27,513 bases of DNA. Source: a virus. Positions within the stretch are counted from its first letter, which is position 1, and each line of letters opens with the position of its first letter. Below are positions 2,819 to 19,910 of the stretch, one piece after another. Position numbers and translations under genes: made by a program. Where the stretch lies: positions 1 to 27,513 of the IMG/VR virus record IMGVR_UViG_3300025646_000263. One strand, written 5' to 3'. The notes below the pieces were generated by a model, which worked only from the letters and a program-made list of their open reading frames with translations, was not told the DNA's origin and ran no database searches.

Positions 2819-2965
2819 CTAACCTTGGCCTCTATAACGTTTCCAGCTACGCCTTTTGTGCTTGTTTAAAGGTTTACTATTACGACCTTTTCCTTGGCTT
2901 GTACGCTTTCTTTTGTTAGCATTTAAACTAAATTTATTTTTTACTGTTGTTGTTTTTTTAGACAT
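2819..2965 (-). CDS. Small, very basic protein
   Basis: A 48-residue frame starting MSKKTTTVKNKFSLNANKRK and ending in KHKRRSWKRYRGQG. Almost half the residues are Lys, Arg, Asn or Gln, and there are practically no acidic residues. The ATG at 2965 has AAAGGAA at good spacing. It sits immediately downstream of the tmRNA, with no terminator between, so it may share the precursor transcript. Similar small basic KRK/KGR proteins occur in marine myoviruses, to my recollection. Nucleic-acid binding (for example to DNA or to RNA) is a guess from charge alone. Confidence 0.65.
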   Translation of the reverse strand: MSKKTTTVKNKFSLNANKRKRTSQGKGRNSKPLNKHKRRSWKRYRGQG

Positions 2966-2978
2966 ATTTCCTTTTTGT

Positions 2979-3233
2979 GGTAGGGAGTTTCTGTTCCCAG
3001 GTACTCCCTAAACCCGTTCAGCTTATGCTGCTAATGCAACCTGAGCTGGAGAATAATCGCTGTTGTTTGCAATTATAAAGTTGATGGTGGTCATCACCCT
3101 ATTTGCTCTCTCTGTTACTATCATTTACTGTCGAATACCTGAACACCCCCATATATTGAAAAAGTTTTGGTGGAGGTGGCCGGAATCGAACCGGCGTCCA
3201 ATAAACTACCCTTACAGGTCTACAAGCAAACTA
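2979..3233 (-). ncRNA. ssrA: Circularly permuted two-piece tmRNA
   Basis: tmRNA with SmpB rescues stalled ribosomes and adds a degradation tag. Here the order is permuted. Transcription meets the acceptor piece first (about 3232-3168), with a T-arm (3195-3179, 5-bp stem, loop TTCGATT) and a 3' end CACCTCC-ACCA at 3178-3168. A 17-base spacer (3167-3151) follows, then the coding piece from GGGGGTG (3150-3144) to about 2979. The two ends form a 7-bp acceptor stem with G-U at the third pair, the alanine identity element. Long-range pairing also fits: CAGTAAAT with GTTTATTG, and AGCAAA with TTTGCT. The tag frame is at 3070-3023. The coding piece ends in a hairpin, TAGGGAGT/ACTCCCTA (3010-3003 with 2988-2981). 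Mature ends are inferred. Host processing enzymes and SmpB would be needed. Confidence 0.93.
3023..3070 (-). other. tmRNA tag-peptide reading frame
   Basis: Within the coding piece, GCA AAC AAC starts a 15-codon frame encoding ANNSDYSPAQVALAA and ending in TAA. The resume context TATAATT-GCA-AAC resembles that of bacterial tmRNAs, and the hydrophobic ALAA end is the usual signal for ClpXP/ClpAP-type proteases. Confidence 0.92.
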
Positions 3234-3239
3234 TTAATA

Positions 3240-3268
3240 ATTATATTTATTTTTAAATAAAAAGTCAA
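3240..3268 (-). promoter_or_regulatory. Sigma70-type promoter of the tmRNA
   Basis: TTGACT (3268-3263), a 17-base spacer and TATAAT (3245-3240) on the minus strand, a near-consensus housekeeping promoter. Initiation six to seven bases downstream falls at about 3233, exactly where the acceptor piece must begin. An ATAAATA late-type motif (3250-3244) is embedded between spacer and -10, so the site might serve both host and phage late polymerase forms. Confidence 0.8.
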
Positions 3269-3361
3269 GTATTTTTAAAAAAAAGATGTGTTAGATGCAA
3301 CAACTTCTCCTGTTATTACCTTACATATTAATTTCGTAGATTAATAAAATTTTTCAGTGTA

Positions 3362-11639: not shown

Positions 11640-12740
11640 CTATTTTGCTGTTGGATTTACTTGAAAAAATACATCAGTTTGTTGTGTAGGAATTATCATA
11701 GGTTTACCTTCTGCTATAGCTCCCTTATTATACAAATTAGCTAAATCGTCTCCTGAAGTTGCCGTTATCATTCCTCCTGATCCCAAGCTCATACTAACTA
11801 AATACTCCCATGCTCCTCCCATATCTGGATTATCTTTATACCAATCAAAGTTTGCAGATATATAGGCTGCTGTTACATTTTTAGGATTCGCATTAGATTT
11901 ACTAAATTCTGCTGTAATTTTTTCTCCGTGTTTTCCAAAAACATTACTAAAAATAGCATTTCCTATTTGTTGTTTTCTTGTACTGTCTAATCCTAAACTA
12001 TTTACGATTCTAGTAAAATCAGAAACATTTATACTTTTTTGTGGCTTATCCATCCTGCCTCTGCTCTTGACAAATTCAGATCCAGTGTCATATCCTCCGA
12101 TACTAAAGCTATTAAGTGCATCTGTTAATTCCGGAAATTTAGATATAATTGTTTTTGCTTGATCTGGACTTACTCCTCCTTCTCCCAATCTTCCACTTCC
12201 TTTTGTAACAGCGACTTTTAATTCTACTGCTTTCCCTAGTACATCAATATCTCCTAAACCTTTTTGTTTAATTTTTTTACTTAAAATTGCTAGAGCATGT
12301 TCACCTTTACCTGCTCGTGCTTTACCTGCACCCCAATCTACAAATTCCAAAAACATTTGATAGTTTATATTATTTCCATAGAACAAATCTTTAACAATGT
12401 TATAATGGCCAGATTTTAGAAGCACATTAAAATCTATACATTTGTCTTGTTTGAAATTTTGTAAAAAAATATTTTTTTGATTTAAATTGAGCCTAGGACT
12501 ACTTACCATCTTATGAGCTATTTCAAGTATAACTTGTTTTTTATACTCTCCTTTTAAGGCTACTTCTATATCAGGAGTAAATCTACCTACAACATTAGTT
12601 GTATTTAAAATAGTGTAAATTTTATCTAGTAATATTTTTTGTTGTTCATCATTAGGATCAATATCATTGATACGTTGAATAATTTCTTTTTTTGCTATTT
12701 GTGGATCTGTATATTCTTTTACAAGCTCTCTATACCGCAT
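11640..12740 (-). CDS. Putative PD-(D/E)XK-like nuclease
   Basis: A 366-residue protein without a family name that I can give. Residues about 1-130 are helical. Residues 136-180 have a restriction-endonuclease-like core: WGAGKARAGKGE (Glu147), GDIDV (Asp164/Asp166), then AVELK (Glu173-x-Lys175), which fits the E...D...ExK metal-binding pattern. The C-terminal half is mixed and Gly/Asn-rich. The ATG at 12740 has AAGGAA upstream and AATAAATA 21 bases away, so it is a late gene. It lies next to a second PD-(D/E)XK protein. A role in late DNA processing or in attack on competing DNA is inferred; the nuclease call rests on motifs only. Confidence 0.55.
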   Translation of the reverse strand: MRYRELVKEYTDPQIAKKEIIQRINDIDPNDEQQKILLDKIYTILNTTNVVGRFTPDIEVALKGEYKKQVILEIAHKMVSSPRLNLNQKNIFLQNFKQDKCIDFNVLLKSGHYNIVKDLFYGNNINYQMFLEFVDWGAGKARAGKGEHALAILSKKIKQKGLGDIDVLGKAVELKVAVTKGSGRLGEGGVSPDQAKTIISKFPELTDALNSFSIGGYDTGSEFVKSRGRMDKPQKSINVSDFTRIVNSLGLDSTRKQQIGNAIFSNVFGKHGEKITAEFSKSNANPKNVTAAYISANFDWYKDNPDMGGAWEYLVSMSLGSGGMITATSGDDLANLYNKGAIAEGKPMIIPTQQTDVFFQVNPTAK

Positions 12741-12753
12741 AATTGTTCCTTCA

Positions 12754-13413
12754 CTATAATGTATTTATTTTATAGTAGGAAATTAATCTATCGTTCCATT
12801 TATTACTATATAAATTAAATTCTTCGCCAGTAATGTCAAACCTTTTTGTATTTTCATCTCTATCTACCATAAAAATACTACAAGATTTTATATCAGTTTC
12901 ATATAAACAATTATGAGCTTGAGCATAAGCACAGCATTGTAAAAAATAATTTTCTATCCATTCTTTCTTTTTTATTTTCTTTGCTGTTTTAAAATCTATT
13001 ATTGTAGGTTTACCATCTACTACACCCACACAATCACAAGTTCCTGCATATAGTTCAGGATAATATAAACCTATTTCTGTTCCCCATACAGTATCAATAC
13101 TACCAAAATGTTCAGCTATTAGTTTATTAGCTAATTTTTCTGCTAACTGATGAACATAATTACTACCTACATTTGATGGTTTTTTAAGTAAATAATTTTC
13201 CAAAAGGTTATGAACAGCAGTTCCTAACCCGCTTGCTTCTTTGGTTTGTTTTTTGGCTTCCTCTTCTCCTACTCTTTTTTTCCAAGACTCTAAAAATGTT
13301 TTATCACTTGTTTTGTCTAGAATAGTAGTTACACTAGGAAGAGTACCGGTAGGTGTAGAATATAAACGTTTTCCGTTTATATTCTCCCTGCTTAATAATT
13401 TATAATCGAACAT
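12754..13413 (-). CDS. PD-(D/E)XK exonuclease (RecB/MGME1-like)
   Basis: A 219-residue protein with the motif series of the RecB/Cas4/MGME1-type exonuclease group: PSVTTIL near residue 26, GTAVH (64-68, motif I His), GTEIGLYY (111-118), GTCDCVG with Asp127, IIDFKTAKK (Asp140-x-Lys142, metal and catalytic Lys) and QCCAYAQA (159-166, motif QxxxY-like). These enzymes degrade single- or double-stranded DNA ends. There is no C-terminal Cys cluster as in Cas4. No Shine-Dalgarno precedes the ATG at 13413; a TAGACA-16-TATAAT promoter ends only six bases before it, suggesting a leaderless mRNA. Likely roles are recombination-dependent replication or host-DNA breakdown. Confidence 0.85.
   Translation of the reverse strand: MFDYKLLSRENINGKRLYSTPTGTLPSVTTILDKTSDKTFLESWKKRVGEEEAKKQTKEASGLGTAVHNLLENYLLKKPSNVGSNYVHQLAEKLANKLIAEHFGSIDTVWGTEIGLYYPELYAGTCDCVGVVDGKPTIIDFKTAKKIKKKEWIENYFLQCCAYAQAHNCLYETDIKSCSIFMVDRDENTKRFDITGEEFNLYSNKWNDRLISYYKINTL
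12762..12769 (-). promoter_or_regulatory. Late promoter motif (AATAAATA) for the gene at 12740
   Basis: AATAAATA on the minus strand, 21 bases before the ATG and ahead of AAGGAA; it lies within the last codons of the exonuclease gene. Confidence 0.5.
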
Positions 13414-13419
13414 ATGTTA

Positions 13420-13447
13420 ATTATAGCAAAACTCAAATAAATGTCTA
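13420..13447 (-). promoter_or_regulatory. Sigma70-type promoter of the exonuclease gene
   Basis: TAGACA (13447-13442), a 16-base spacer and TATAAT (13425-13420) on the minus strand. The -10 ends six bases before the ATG at 13413, so the transcript would start at or within a base or two of the start codon. Confidence 0.55.
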
Positions 13448-13771
13448 CCAAGAAATAACCCATACAAATGTATTTGAGGTACTGGTATTTGTCTCTTGAT
13501 ATATACTATAACCTAATCCTTCAAAATATTCTATAACTTGTGACATTTGATCAGTATAATTAGCATTTACATTAGTACCTTGCCAAGTTACATAATATGC
13601 TTCTGCAGTAGTTCCCGGAGTTGTCATAATAGTTGTATTTGCACTGATAGAAAATAAGTTATTATCAATAGCCGTAAATATCAAACTCTCCAAAGCAGTT
13701 ATTTCTGTATGTATAACACTGTTTACTCTAGAATTAAGCCTAGCTTGTTTTGCATTTATAAAATAACTCAT
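13445..13771 (-). CDS. Hypothetical, probably structural protein
   Basis: A 108-residue protein of unknown function. The N-terminal part (NAKQARLNSRVNSVIHTEI) is helical. The rest is Thr/Asn/Tyr-rich with a C-terminal strand NTFVWVISW and reads like a small virion protein. Its ATG overlaps the stop of the upstream gene (ATGA), with AAGGAA five bases before. The end of its coding region carries the -35 of the exonuclease promoter. Confidence 0.65.
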   Translation of the reverse strand: MSYFINAKQARLNSRVNSVIHTEITALESLIFTAIDNNLFSISANTTIMTTPGTTAEAYYVTWQGTNVNANYTDQMSQVIEYFEGLGYSIYQETNTSTSNTFVWVISW

Positions 13772-14022
13772 TTAAATTCCTTATCTAATTGTTTTTTTGC
13801 ATTTTTGGAAATTTTATTATCTACTTCAGATTTGTCTTTAGAATATGGTAATTCTCCTAACAAACTGACAAATTTAGGATTAGCATCGGCTACAATAGGT
13901 ATACTATTCAATATAGGCATTAATACATGAATATTTACATCATTATGCCCTATTTGTTTTAAATCTTGAATTAGGTTTTTAGGTGGAAATTTAGTTAAAT
14001 TATTAGCAAGAGCTTGTGTCAA
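13768..14022 (-). CDS. Possible -1 frameshift extension of the gene at 15122
   Basis: 84 codons if read from TTG at 14022, but this start has no good Shine-Dalgarno and the frame stays open 19 codons further, up to the slippery site at 14079, with no ATG, GTG or better start. The extra part (EITESDFYSKELRQDTEAI) reads as normal protein sequence and continues smoothly into LTQALANN. A -1 shift on A AAA AAG at the end of the upstream gene would join them, giving a 103-residue extension and a product of about 451 residues. The alternatives are an unusual TTG/ATT/ATA start or a one-base error in the A8 run. The function is unknown; the sequence is helical with a Lys-rich end. Confidence 0.65.
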   Translation of the reverse strand: MTQALANNLTKFPPKNLIQDLKQIGHNDVNIHVLMPILNSIPIVADANPKFVSLLGELPYSKDKSEVDNKISKNAKKQLDKEFK

Positions 14023-14072
14023 AATAGCTTCTGTATCTTGCCTAAGCTCTTTGCTATAAAAATCAGATTCAG

Positions 14073-15122
14073 TTATCTCTTTTTTTTAGATACTAGCATT
14101 TTTTTTGCTTGTTCTAAAATTTTTCTATCTACACGTCCACGGCTAGAATGATCTAATAGCATTTTGATTGCATTCTTGTAGGTTGATTCTTTAGGTATTC
14201 TACCTAAAGTATCTTCTTCTCCGCCACTCATTTGGTCAACACCTCCTAGATCGTCCGCTGGCATATCTGACATTTCGTCCTCTGAATCCATTGCTGGTAC
14301 TTCACCCATATCTGAATCCATATTAGGCATAGGAGCGTCCCCACTCAACGACAAAACAGCATTATCTACAGCATCTTTGGTTTGTTTTAGCATATCCAAC
14401 AATGCACTTAATTGTGAATCTACAGAAGAATTAAATGCTTCTGCTTTATCAGCACCCATTCTTTCTTTCATAGCATCTACTAAAGGCAGTAATTCTTCTA
14501 CTTGCATACTTGCAGTATCTTCTACCATTTTTTGTAATTTGTCTACTAAATCCTTTGCAGCAAGTAATACTTCTGCTTCTTCTAAATCTGCTTCATACAA
14601 ACTTTGAAAGCTTTCTAAAGTGGGAGTTTTCTTATATTCAGATCTCAATGTAACTTCATAAGTCTCTTTAACTTCTTTGCTGTCAGTAACTTCTTGTTTA
14701 CCACCAGTAATTTCTTTTACTTTACTTAAACTCATGCTTACAGGATAATCTTTTCCATCAATTTTTACACTTTTTGGCATTTTTCCTGAGCTCTTATATG
14801 CACTCATAGCTTTACTAGCTATAGCATATGTTAAACTTTCTTGAGTATCTACTGATTCTTTCACTTTGGTTTTAACCCGTCTAGAAGAAGGACTTACCTC
14901 TCGCAACAACTTTAAAGCTTCTTTCAACAAAAGATTCTTAGCATAATCAGAATCTTGTGTACAGTTTCTTGATTCAGCTAATGTCTGCTGAATTACAGAT
15001 ATAAGCTGATTTATTTTATTAGGTTCTATATCATCTTTAATAACAACACCGAAATTTTCTTTTAAAAAGTAATTTACTTTATCATATTGTTGTTTTTTGC
15101 TAAAAATACTATCTAATTGCAT
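14073..15122 (-). CDS. Conserved structural-type protein, zero-frame product
   Basis: A 349-residue protein. About 1-190 is helical and Lys/Ser-rich; 190-270 is strongly helical (LLAAKDLVDKLQKMVEDT and PLVDAMKERMG). About 270-315 is a low-complexity acidic Met/Asp/Pro stretch, and the C-terminus is basic, ending VSKKKR. I recall relatives in T4-like marine phages labelled only as structural or hypothetical. Acidic and coiled features would suit a scaffold or internal virion protein, but that is inferred. It has a late motif 19 bases before the ATG at 15122 and a GGG-type ribosome site. It ends two codons after a classical -1 slippery heptamer. Confidence 0.7.
   Translation of the reverse strand: MQLDSIFSKKQQYDKVNYFLKENFGVVIKDDIEPNKINQLISVIQQTLAESRNCTQDSDYAKNLLLKEALKLLREVSPSSRRVKTKVKESVDTQESLTYAIASKAMSAYKSSGKMPKSVKIDGKDYPVSMSLSKVKEITGGKQEVTDSKEVKETYEVTLRSEYKKTPTLESFQSLYEADLEEAEVLLAAKDLVDKLQKMVEDTASMQVEELLPLVDAMKERMGADKAEAFNSSVDSQLSALLDMLKQTKDAVDNAVLSLSGDAPMPNMDSDMGEVPAMDSEDEMSDMPADDLGGVDQMSGGEEDTLGRIPKESTYKNAIKMLLDHSSRGRVDRKILEQAKKMLVSKKKR
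14079..14085 (-). other. -1 ribosomal frameshift slippery heptamer A AAA AAG
   Basis: In the zero frame the codons are TCT AAA AAA AAG AGA TAA, so the heptamer A-AAA-AAG is exactly in the X-XXY-YYZ register known from dnaX-type shifting. After slipping back one base, reading continues GAG ATA ACT GAA for 103 codons to the stop at 13768. No stem-loop was worked out downstream. Confidence 0.6.
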
Positions 15123-17391: not shown

Positions 17392-18876
17392 TTATTTATC
17401 TTTTGCGTCCGGAATAAGCATATTATCTGTTTGCATAGCCATTACAAAATATTCCATTACATCTAATAATCTTGCATTGTTTTTTAACCAAAAATAAAGT
17501 CTAGTAAAAACAATTCTTTTTTGGTTCAAATCTAATATTTGCCATTCCTGTACCAGTCTTCTCAAACTCGTTAACGTGTTATTTTTTATACTTAATTCTT
17601 TTTGTAATCTAAATAAATCACGTCTACTTTCACTAACTTCAATACCGTTTTCTAAAATACGAAAATATCTTAACAACAAAATTTTATTTAAATTAGATTT
17701 TTCTTTTAGTATTTCTTTAGAAAAATCTTTGCTTTTTCTGTTACTACCTATACATCCATGTATATTCATATATAAATCATTATTTGAATATAAAGGATTA
17801 TCAAAACCATTATATTTAATTGTATTTTTTATATATTTTTTTGCATAATCTTCTGTAAGATCTTGATGTCTTAAAATATGTAAAACTAATATATTTACAA
17901 ACGTAAGCTCTCTTAAATTTTGCCAATTAAATTTATGTGTAGGACTTAATCTATATAGTTTGCTTTCCATTAAGCTTTGCAAAAAATTAGTACTTTTTTG
18001 TTCTAAAACTGTATTTACTGCTTTTATACTTTGTTCTTTTTTGTCTGCTTTTGGCGTTCCAACTTCTCCGCTTTTGACTGAAACCATGCTATTAAAAACA
18101 CCACGAATCCTTTGTTTACTAGTTGGATTTTTAATAATTCTATCAATTTGATACAACAGACTTTCAAATCCTCTATCGAAATTATAACCGGGTAGCAACC
18201 TGGTAACATCGCTCCACCTGGTACTATACCAGTGTATATTACGGGTTCCTTTGACTTCTTGACCTTGTTCGTTTTGTTCATAAGATCTAAATTCCAATTT
18301 TTGTCCGCTAAGATTAAATTCATATTTTGTATTAGGTTCTTGAGGTAAACTGGTGATGTCAATGTTAAACTCTGATAATAAATTTTCAGCTTTTCCAGCT
18401 GTTTGTGCTTCCTGAAATGCAACTTTAACTAATCCTAAAATTAATCCCTGAATTTCCGCAGGGTAGTCTAAAAATGTTTTTTTAAAATTACTCTCATCTT
18501 CGTCTAATGCTATTATACAATCTATTTGAACACTTTTTCCTGGATTATTGAATTGAGGATATCTTAAACTTACTAATTCTCCTGCATTATATGTCCGCTT
18601 TCCTTGATGCTTTCCTGTAAAAGGAATAACTATGCTTTGGGGTAACCTTTCTAAATAATTTTGCAAATCTTTTTTAATTGTTTTTTTATCTGATCCTTCT
18701 ATATGAACAATTAAATCTATATCTCCAAAATCTTTTTTTGCACTAGTGTTATAGCTTCCACTAGTTTGTACTGATTTAAAACCAGGAAAATTTTGTAGTA
18801 CTTTATTTCTAAAATCATTTAGAGTAGGTTCTACAAACTCCCTTTCTATTCTGTCTGCACCTGCGACTCCACTCAT
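17392..18876 (-). CDS. Nucleotidyltransferase-fold protein A
   Basis: A 494-residue protein. The N-terminal domain carries the pol-beta-type nucleotidyltransferase signature: TSGSYNTS (Gly40-Ser41), GDIDLIVHI (Asp52, Asp54) and a third acidic residue in SVQIDCIIALDED (Asp119). These bind Mg2+ and NTP in enzymes that add nucleotides to RNA, proteins or small molecules. The rest, mainly helical, is not recognised. The N-terminus (GADRIEREFVEPTL) matches the corresponding part of the next gene, so the two are paralogues. The start overlaps the neighbour's stop (TAATG), with AGGAAAG upstream. The substrate is unknown. Confidence 0.7.
   Translation of the reverse strand: MSGVAGADRIEREFVEPTLNDFRNKVLQNFPGFKSVQTSGSYNTSAKKDFGDIDLIVHIEGSDKKTIKKDLQNYLERLPQSIVIPFTGKHQGKRTYNAGELVSLRYPQFNNPGKSVQIDCIIALDEDESNFKKTFLDYPAEIQGLILGLVKVAFQEAQTAGKAENLLSEFNIDITSLPQEPNTKYEFNLSGQKLEFRSYEQNEQGQEVKGTRNIHWYSTRWSDVTRLLPGYNFDRGFESLLYQIDRIIKNPTSKQRIRGVFNSMVSVKSGEVGTPKADKKEQSIKAVNTVLEQKSTNFLQSLMESKLYRLSPTHKFNWQNLRELTFVNILVLHILRHQDLTEDYAKKYIKNTIKYNGFDNPLYSNNDLYMNIHGCIGSNRKSKDFSKEILKEKSNLNKILLLRYFRILENGIEVSESRRDLFRLQKELSIKNNTLTSLRRLVQEWQILDLNQKRIVFTRLYFWLKNNARLLDVMEYFVMAMQTDNMLIPDAKDK
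17393..17399 (-). promoter_or_regulatory. Late promoter motif (GATAAATA) for the gene at 17363
   Basis: ATAAATA preceded by G on the minus strand, inside the final codons of the upstream gene and 29 bases before the ATG, which has an AAGGAGAA site. Confidence 0.5.
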
Positions 18877-19910
18877 TATGCTTTCCTGTATTTTGTTAGA
18901 TTACTTGTATCAGGTAAAAACTTACCAGTTAATCCAAAATGATCTTGATGCTCTATCCAGTACTCTTGTAAATTATATGGTATGTCTGCACGAGTTTTAT
19001 CTAAAATTCTTAAATATACACTCATTATATCATCAAAATTACTATCGGCTTTAGCAACATCAATAAGTTCATAATAGCTATCAAGTTCATCTGCTGTTAG
19101 ATGACTTCCATATAAAGAGTTTATTAGTTTTAATACTTCTTCTGGTGTATTTGCAACAACTTGATTTGTCTTTTTATCTGTAACTCCTTTTACATGATTA
19201 AAACTAAATCCTTTTACCTGTAACATACTTAATAAAAGTTGGGTACGATGCAAACCTTTTACATTATCTTCTTTACCATATTCAATGCTTTTATAACTAA
19301 ACAGCAACCAAGGTAAATGTCCTATCATCCAATCAATTTGTATACCTATACCTAAATTATTTCCTTGTTCATCATACTGAGGAAACATTCCAAATGCATT
19401 TCCTGGATTTGCTTTTTTTTCGTCCATGTGTATGTTGGGTGCATGGGCATTAACATACTCACTTATTAGCTGTAGGACTGCTTTCATAGCAATTTGTTCT
19501 TTTGTACTGGTTTTTGCTCTTTTATGTAATTGATCAAACCGCATTACAAATTCTTCTGGATTAATATTCCATGCTTGAACACTATCAGAAGTTACACCAT
19601 TGGGAAACAATTTTGTTCCATCTATTGCTAAATCAATATCTCCACTAGTATCTTTTTTACCAACACTACCTACAGGATGGAAATCATTAGGGTTGATAGG
19701 AGCTTTAGGAAATACTTTTTTTAGCTCTATAAAATATTTTTGTAATGTAGGAGCTATGTGTTCTCTGCGAATTCTATCTGTAGCCGCACCAAAAATATTT
19801 CCACCTTCAGTAATTTTATTATTAAAATCTAATTGTTTTCTACGAGGTTTCCTAGGTCCTCTTATATCTCTTTTTCTCCATCCAGCTAATGTAATTTCAC
19901 TTATCTTCAT
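18876..19910 (-). CDS. Nucleotidyltransferase-fold protein B
   Basis: A 344-residue protein. A basic N-terminal tail (WRKRDIRGPRKPRRKQ) comes before ATDRIRREHIAPTL and the NTase signature: HPVGSVGKKD (Gly81-Ser82), SGDIDLAID (Asp91, Asp93), and IGIQIDWMIGH with Asp193. All three acidic residues are present, so catalysis is possible. The helical C-terminal part has no known motif. The ATG at 19910 lies inside the end of the upstream gene with no good Shine-Dalgarno. Its tandem paralogue follows directly. tRNA/tmRNA end repair, toxin-like modification or protein nucleotidylation are all possible; the sequence does not decide. Confidence 0.7.
   Translation of the reverse strand: MKISEITLAGWRKRDIRGPRKPRRKQLDFNNKITEGGNIFGAATDRIRREHIAPTLQKYFIELKKVFPKAPINPNDFHPVGSVGKKDTSGDIDLAIDGTKLFPNGVTSDSVQAWNINPEEFVMRFDQLHKRAKTSTKEQIAMKAVLQLISEYVNAHAPNIHMDEKKANPGNAFGMFPQYDEQGNNLGIGIQIDWMIGHLPWLLFSYKSIEYGKEDNVKGLHRTQLLLSMLQVKGFSFNHVKGVTDKKTNQVVANTPEEVLKLINSLYGSHLTADELDSYYELIDVAKADSNFDDIMSVYLRILDKTRADIPYNLQEYWIEHQDHFGLTGKFLPDTSNLTKYRKA

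Follow-up and report, generated by a model that had tools for sequence, protein, structure and literature searches.

The locus described here raises the question of how a gene with no evident start codon of its own can be translated. In particular, within a 27,513-nucleotide stretch of viral DNA (IMG/VR record IMGVR_UViG_3300025646_000263; hereafter the window, meaning the whole stretch analyzed), a minus-strand gene of 349 codons encoding 349 aa (gene 1, 14073–15122) is followed on the same strand by an open frame of 103 codons plus a stop that has no conserved start codon (gene 2, 13768–14079), and then by a gene for a 108-aa protein (gene 3, 13445–13771, minus strand) whose start overlaps the gene 2 stop. 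An initial annotation made from the sequence had proposed that genes 1 and 2 are joined by a programmed −1 frameshift, and the coordinates of the window confirm the arrangement on which that proposal was built. The minus-strand 3′ end of gene 1 reads TCT AAA AAA AAG AGA TAA, in which the run AAAAAAAAG (14079–14087; eight A residues at 14087–14080 and a G at 14079) contains the heptamer A_AAA_AAG (14085–14079) in phase with the zero frame, and a single codon (AGA) separates the heptamer from the gene 1 stop (TAA, 14073–14075, minus strand). Because a TAA occupies 14088–14086 in the −1 frame, the open stretch of that frame begins exactly at the heptamer; after a slip it would extend for 103 codons, from the GAG at 14079 to 13771, and end at a TGA (13770–13768). 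The lengths given in the initial annotation, a 349-residue form alongside a fusion of about 451 residues, were likewise reproduced (348 + 103 = 451 aa for the predicted fusion). In the window, the earliest ATG, GTG or TTG in the −1 frame is a TTG ~19 codons in.

The same junction was found in two contigs from other metagenome assemblies, IMGVR_UViG_3300007346_000926 (L001) and IMGVR_UViG_3300009001_000137 (L003), whose gene 1 products are 95% and 76% identical, respectively, to that of the window. Both have kept the identical A8-G run, the gene 1 stop and the startless −1 frame, and both lack the TTG present in the window; in L001 the first ATG, GTG or TTG of gene 2 occurs only at 122 nt past the gene 1 stop. 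The predicted junction peptide of the fusion is VSKKKEITESDF in the window and VSKKKDLTESDF in L001. Viral contigs were scanned by pattern and by protein, and genome contigs once; these scans recovered as members of this clade only the window and four contigs; three of these five, including the window, span the junction, which is thus covered by three alleles. Among these alleles, dN in gene 2 is 0.20–0.28 as compared with a dS of 0.78–1.12 (dN/dS ~0.18–0.30), and the gene 2 frame is under purifying selection. In addition, the window's 7,930 codons contain only four in-phase copies of A_AAA_AAG, and ~5e-5 of shuffles produce an open frame of 103 codons. Taken together, the rarity of the heptamer, the shuffle rate and the selection on gene 2 demonstrate that the arrangement of slip site and open frame is not due to chance.

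Outside one patch, the window and the L001 contig share ~99% DNA identity over more than 8 kb. The patch is sharply bounded, comprises ~850 bp at ~70–85% identity (window ~13390–14240, compared with ~3170–4020 of L114) and spans the end of gene 1, gene 2 and gene 3. The confinement of the drop in identity to this patch indicates that either the window or L001 probably acquired a divergent allele by recombination. The frameshift signal is present in both alleles of the patch; with dS ~1 across the patch and the A8-G run and frame unchanged, it would appear that the signal was retained while its surroundings diverged.

These observations support the programmed frameshift originally suggested: the heptamer, the startless frame and a downstream stem-loop occur in all three alleles at dS ~1. 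We consider it probable, judging from sequence, that −1 ribosomal frameshifting on A_AAA_AAG yields both a 349-aa and a 451-aa protein. According to this proposal, some of the ribosomes translating gene 1 would slip back one base at the heptamer, just before the stop, and continue into gene 2, such that one message would give rise to the 349-aa protein and to a 451-aa fusion retaining nearly all of both proteins. With IS911/IS3 stimulators in E. coli, A_AAA_AAG ranks in the top three heptamers for efficiency (PMC4066793). Two other candidate sites in the window were rejected. A second A8 run, at 14106–14099 on the minus strand and nine codons before the end of gene 1, is not kept in L001 or L003 and would be followed immediately by the −1 stop at 14088–14086. 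Another in-phase A_AAA_AAG near a gene end (~19920) precedes a gene that begins at an ATG of its own in the +1 rather than the −1 frame.

The downstream stem-loop (14005–14055, minus strand) is a candidate stimulator, with an invariant 8-bp core formed by AAGAGCUU (14051–14044) and AAGCUCUU (14015–14008). It is more stable than shuffled sequences in each of the three alleles (z −3.1, −3.2 and −4.0); among codon-resampled sequences encoding the same protein, 0, 2 and 1 per 1000 were equally stable, and two stem pairs are changed on both sides. Conserved residues near the slip site are encoded by identical codons in 14 of 15 cases, a higher share than the 27 of 60 in the rest of the block (Fisher p 0.0006; p 0.015 after correction for scanning); over the whole cassette, third-position invariance is not clearly raised (13/28 vs 28/72). 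Folding of longer stretches was less significant (z −1.8, −1.1 and −2.9). The stem begins ~23–27 nt past the heptamer, whereas stimulatory structures usually begin 5–8 nt past it (PMC4066793). Strong structure near the gene 2 start (z −2.7 to −4.1) is also present in several relatives in which that start is ordinary, and the hairpin is therefore not necessarily tied to frameshifting. Given the unusual spacing and the structure in these relatives, the stem-loop is regarded here as a putative aid to the slip. No Shine-Dalgarno-like sequence was visible upstream of the heptamer. All three alleles could also pair GAAUCU with AGAUUU over 6 bp, as an outer helix or pseudoknot close to the slip site; being invariant and located in AT-rich codons, this pairing provides no evidence for such a structure.

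The main rival to ribosomal frameshifting is transcriptional slippage, in which RNA polymerase would add one A to the A8 run and the resulting nine-A messages would encode the fusion in a single frame. The same proteins would result, and the A8 run is invariant across the three alleles. However, runs of eight A are at the short end for efficient transcriptional slippage in E. coli; the run is A8-G, with the ribosomal heptamer phased to the reading frame; and six other A8 or T8 runs occur in the window. The conserved hairpin would also be better suited to a ribosomal slip, since a structure 3′ of the run has yet to be transcribed when the polymerase reaches the run. Productive transcriptional frameshifting on poly-A has a precedent in bacteria, reported for Citrobacter tssM (PMC4256274). 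On balance, we regard transcriptional slippage as unlikely at this junction.

We sampled 89 distinct junctions of relatives, taken from named phages and viral contigs. In 87 of these, gene 2 has a start codon near the gene 1 stop, almost always from −1 to +19 nt from that stop; the two exceptions are L001 and L003. In phages PA5oct, 121Q, RaK2, GAP32 and XbC2, the gene 2 homologue has its own ATG or GTG 0–16 nt after gene 1, and the gene order runs from a DnaB-type helicase through gene 1, gene 2 and an exonuclease to nrdA, with further genes between the helicase and gene 1 and between the exonuclease and nrdA. The pairs EST35_0237/EST35_0238 of PA5oct and gp27/gp28 of 121Q, like those of RaK2, GAP32 and XbC2, are thus homologous to the window pair, adjacent and in the same order, but with a separate gene 2 start they do not need a frameshift. 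The initial annotation had spoken of this protein family in T4-like phages; the best described homologues belong to jumbo phages of the PA5oct/121Q/RaK2 type rather than to T4 itself. Whether relatives conserve the heptamer or have a single continuous frame had been raised there as informative, and the answer on the heptamer is divided: the heptamer is kept in L001 and L003 and absent from more distant relatives. A second gene with its own start, which had been named as a point against frameshifting, is literally what every more distant relative sampled has, and the slippery junction is absent from those relatives. With a gene 2 start in 87 of 89 junctions and none in only the closest relatives, the genes were most likely separate ancestrally, with the startless slippery junction arising later.

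The position of the gene 2 start in these relatives bears on a second alternative, that gene 2 is translated alone by termination and reinitiation at a non-standard start such as AUA or AUU near the gene 1 stop. Because the ATG of gene 2 overlaps or directly follows the gene 1 stop in other relatives, ribosomes would be delivered to this point, and ATA is the second codon of the open frame in both the window and L003. In L001, however, that codon is TTA, and no near-cognate start, nor any other non-standard start codon, is common to the first gene 2 codons of the three alleles; reinitiation would also leave the retention and phasing of the A8-G run unexplained. We therefore consider reinitiation distinctly improbable. 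Finally, although homopolymer runs are error-prone, it is very unlikely that the junction reflects a sequencing error or an indel that disrupted a continuous or independent gene and left gene 2 to decay, as the same A8-G run and startless frame occur in three contigs from different metagenome assemblies at dS ~1, gene 2 shows no disruption along its full length and is under purifying selection, and the single continuous gene that a ninth A would create was seen in none of the relatives sampled.

Profile searches indicated that both genes encode virion proteins. Gene 1 matches phrog_14154 (E 8e-22) and gene 2 matches phrog_15050 (E 3.5e-7), each a virion structural protein family annotated as head and packaging; a gene 2 profile matches EST35_0238 of PA5oct (E 2.5e-18), and synteny with relatives agrees with the assignment of gene 1 to phrog_14154 and with gene 2 following it. 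The PA5oct record labels both homologues, and the gene that follows them, as structural and as detected by ESI-MS/MS. Gene 3 matches the last of these, the MS-detected structural protein EST35_0239, in size and position, the two features on which they were compared. The virion proteome of phAPEC6 includes a 12.3-kDa protein detected by one peptide (PMC7247149), which we take to be a gene 2 homologue on the basis of its mass and gene order. A low-confidence model of the gene 1 protein is helical, with an acidic disordered linker (approximately residues 262–310) and a lysine-rich C-terminus, and the gene 2 protein is predicted to adopt a winged-helix-like fold (mean pLDDT 78). In structure comparisons, the gene 2 model came closest to one domain of a replisome MCM subunit (Z 9.8, rmsd 2.2 over 71 residues), a likeness that is uninformative on function; a search against PDB profiles gave a glutaminase match (E 0.003), and structure searches yielded no function for gene 2. 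The fusion would thus carry a winged-helix-like virion protein as a C-terminal extension of an acidic, helical one, and both products may be present in the particle. Because the start of gene 3 overlaps the gene 2 stop (ATGA), gene 3 is probably translationally coupled to gene 2 and would be translated largely by shifted ribosomes.

Elsewhere in the window, three long minus-strand open frames (11640–12740, 17392–18876 and 18876–19910) had no PHROG match at the thresholds used; the first sits between the exonuclease and nrdA genes. The window also contains a permuted tmRNA of the alphaproteobacterial type (2932–3272, minus strand; Rfam RF04321, E 1.5e-19, also RF01849) with the tag ANNSDYSPAQVALAA according to ARAGORN, and the presence of this type of tmRNA in a phage contig suggests an alphaproteobacterial host.

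We found no report of frameshifting for these two families in the literature on jumbo and T4-like phages, which we covered mostly through non-subscription sources. Here, frameshifting appears to be a derived state that took the place of a start codon since lost, and the locus offers a before-and-after case: the other relatives sampled start the two genes separately, and one clade has a slippery fusion junction. We put forward more tentatively the combined possibility that in this clade a conserved virion gene came to rely on the frameshift in place of its start codon, that a single slip rate sets the ratio of three virion proteins and that the signal involves an unusually distant stem-loop. 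If so, the slip rate would govern the amounts of free gene 1 protein, of the gene 1/gene 2 fusion and of the gene 3 protein; ribosomes that have not shifted may reach gene 3 only inefficiently. A fusion would also imply that the two proteins can work while covalently joined, raising the possibility that the separate gene 1 and gene 2 proteins are in contact within particles of the PA5oct/121Q group.

The junction can be compared with several characterized frameshift systems. The slippery heptamer of the phage λ genes G and G-T differs from A_AAA_AAG. In λ, as proposed for the window, a −1 slip near the end of a late gene gives two products, one of them short and the other extended at its C-terminus, but the proteins are different: λ gpG and gpGT are tail assembly chaperones that guide tail assembly and stay outside the mature virion (PMC5009743), whereas homologues of the window pair are annotated as virion proteins (head and packaging) and the pair sits between helicase and nrdA genes. 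We detected neither homology to λ-type chaperones nor neighboring tape measure or major tail genes, the neighbors being the exonuclease, nrdA and DnaB-type helicase genes. Frameshifting of virion proteins has known precedents in phages, among them capsid or tail proteins of T7/T3, Lactobacillus phage A2 and the Listeria phages PSA, A118 and A500 (PMC5009743), and the phrog_14154/phrog_15050 pair is apparently new to this list. As in those phages, two virion products would share an N-terminus and differ by a frameshifted C-terminal extension. There, the protein extended is a major coat or major tail protein, and the extension often takes the form of an Ig-like domain; in the window, the extension would instead be a predicted winged-helix-like protein, which every other relative sampled encodes in a conserved gene of its own. 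With E. coli dnaX and with IS911, the junction shares the A_AAA_AAG heptamer and a downstream stem-loop, and it differs from them in having no visible upstream Shine-Dalgarno-like stimulator and in the placement of its stem, at 23–27 rather than 5–8 nt from the heptamer.
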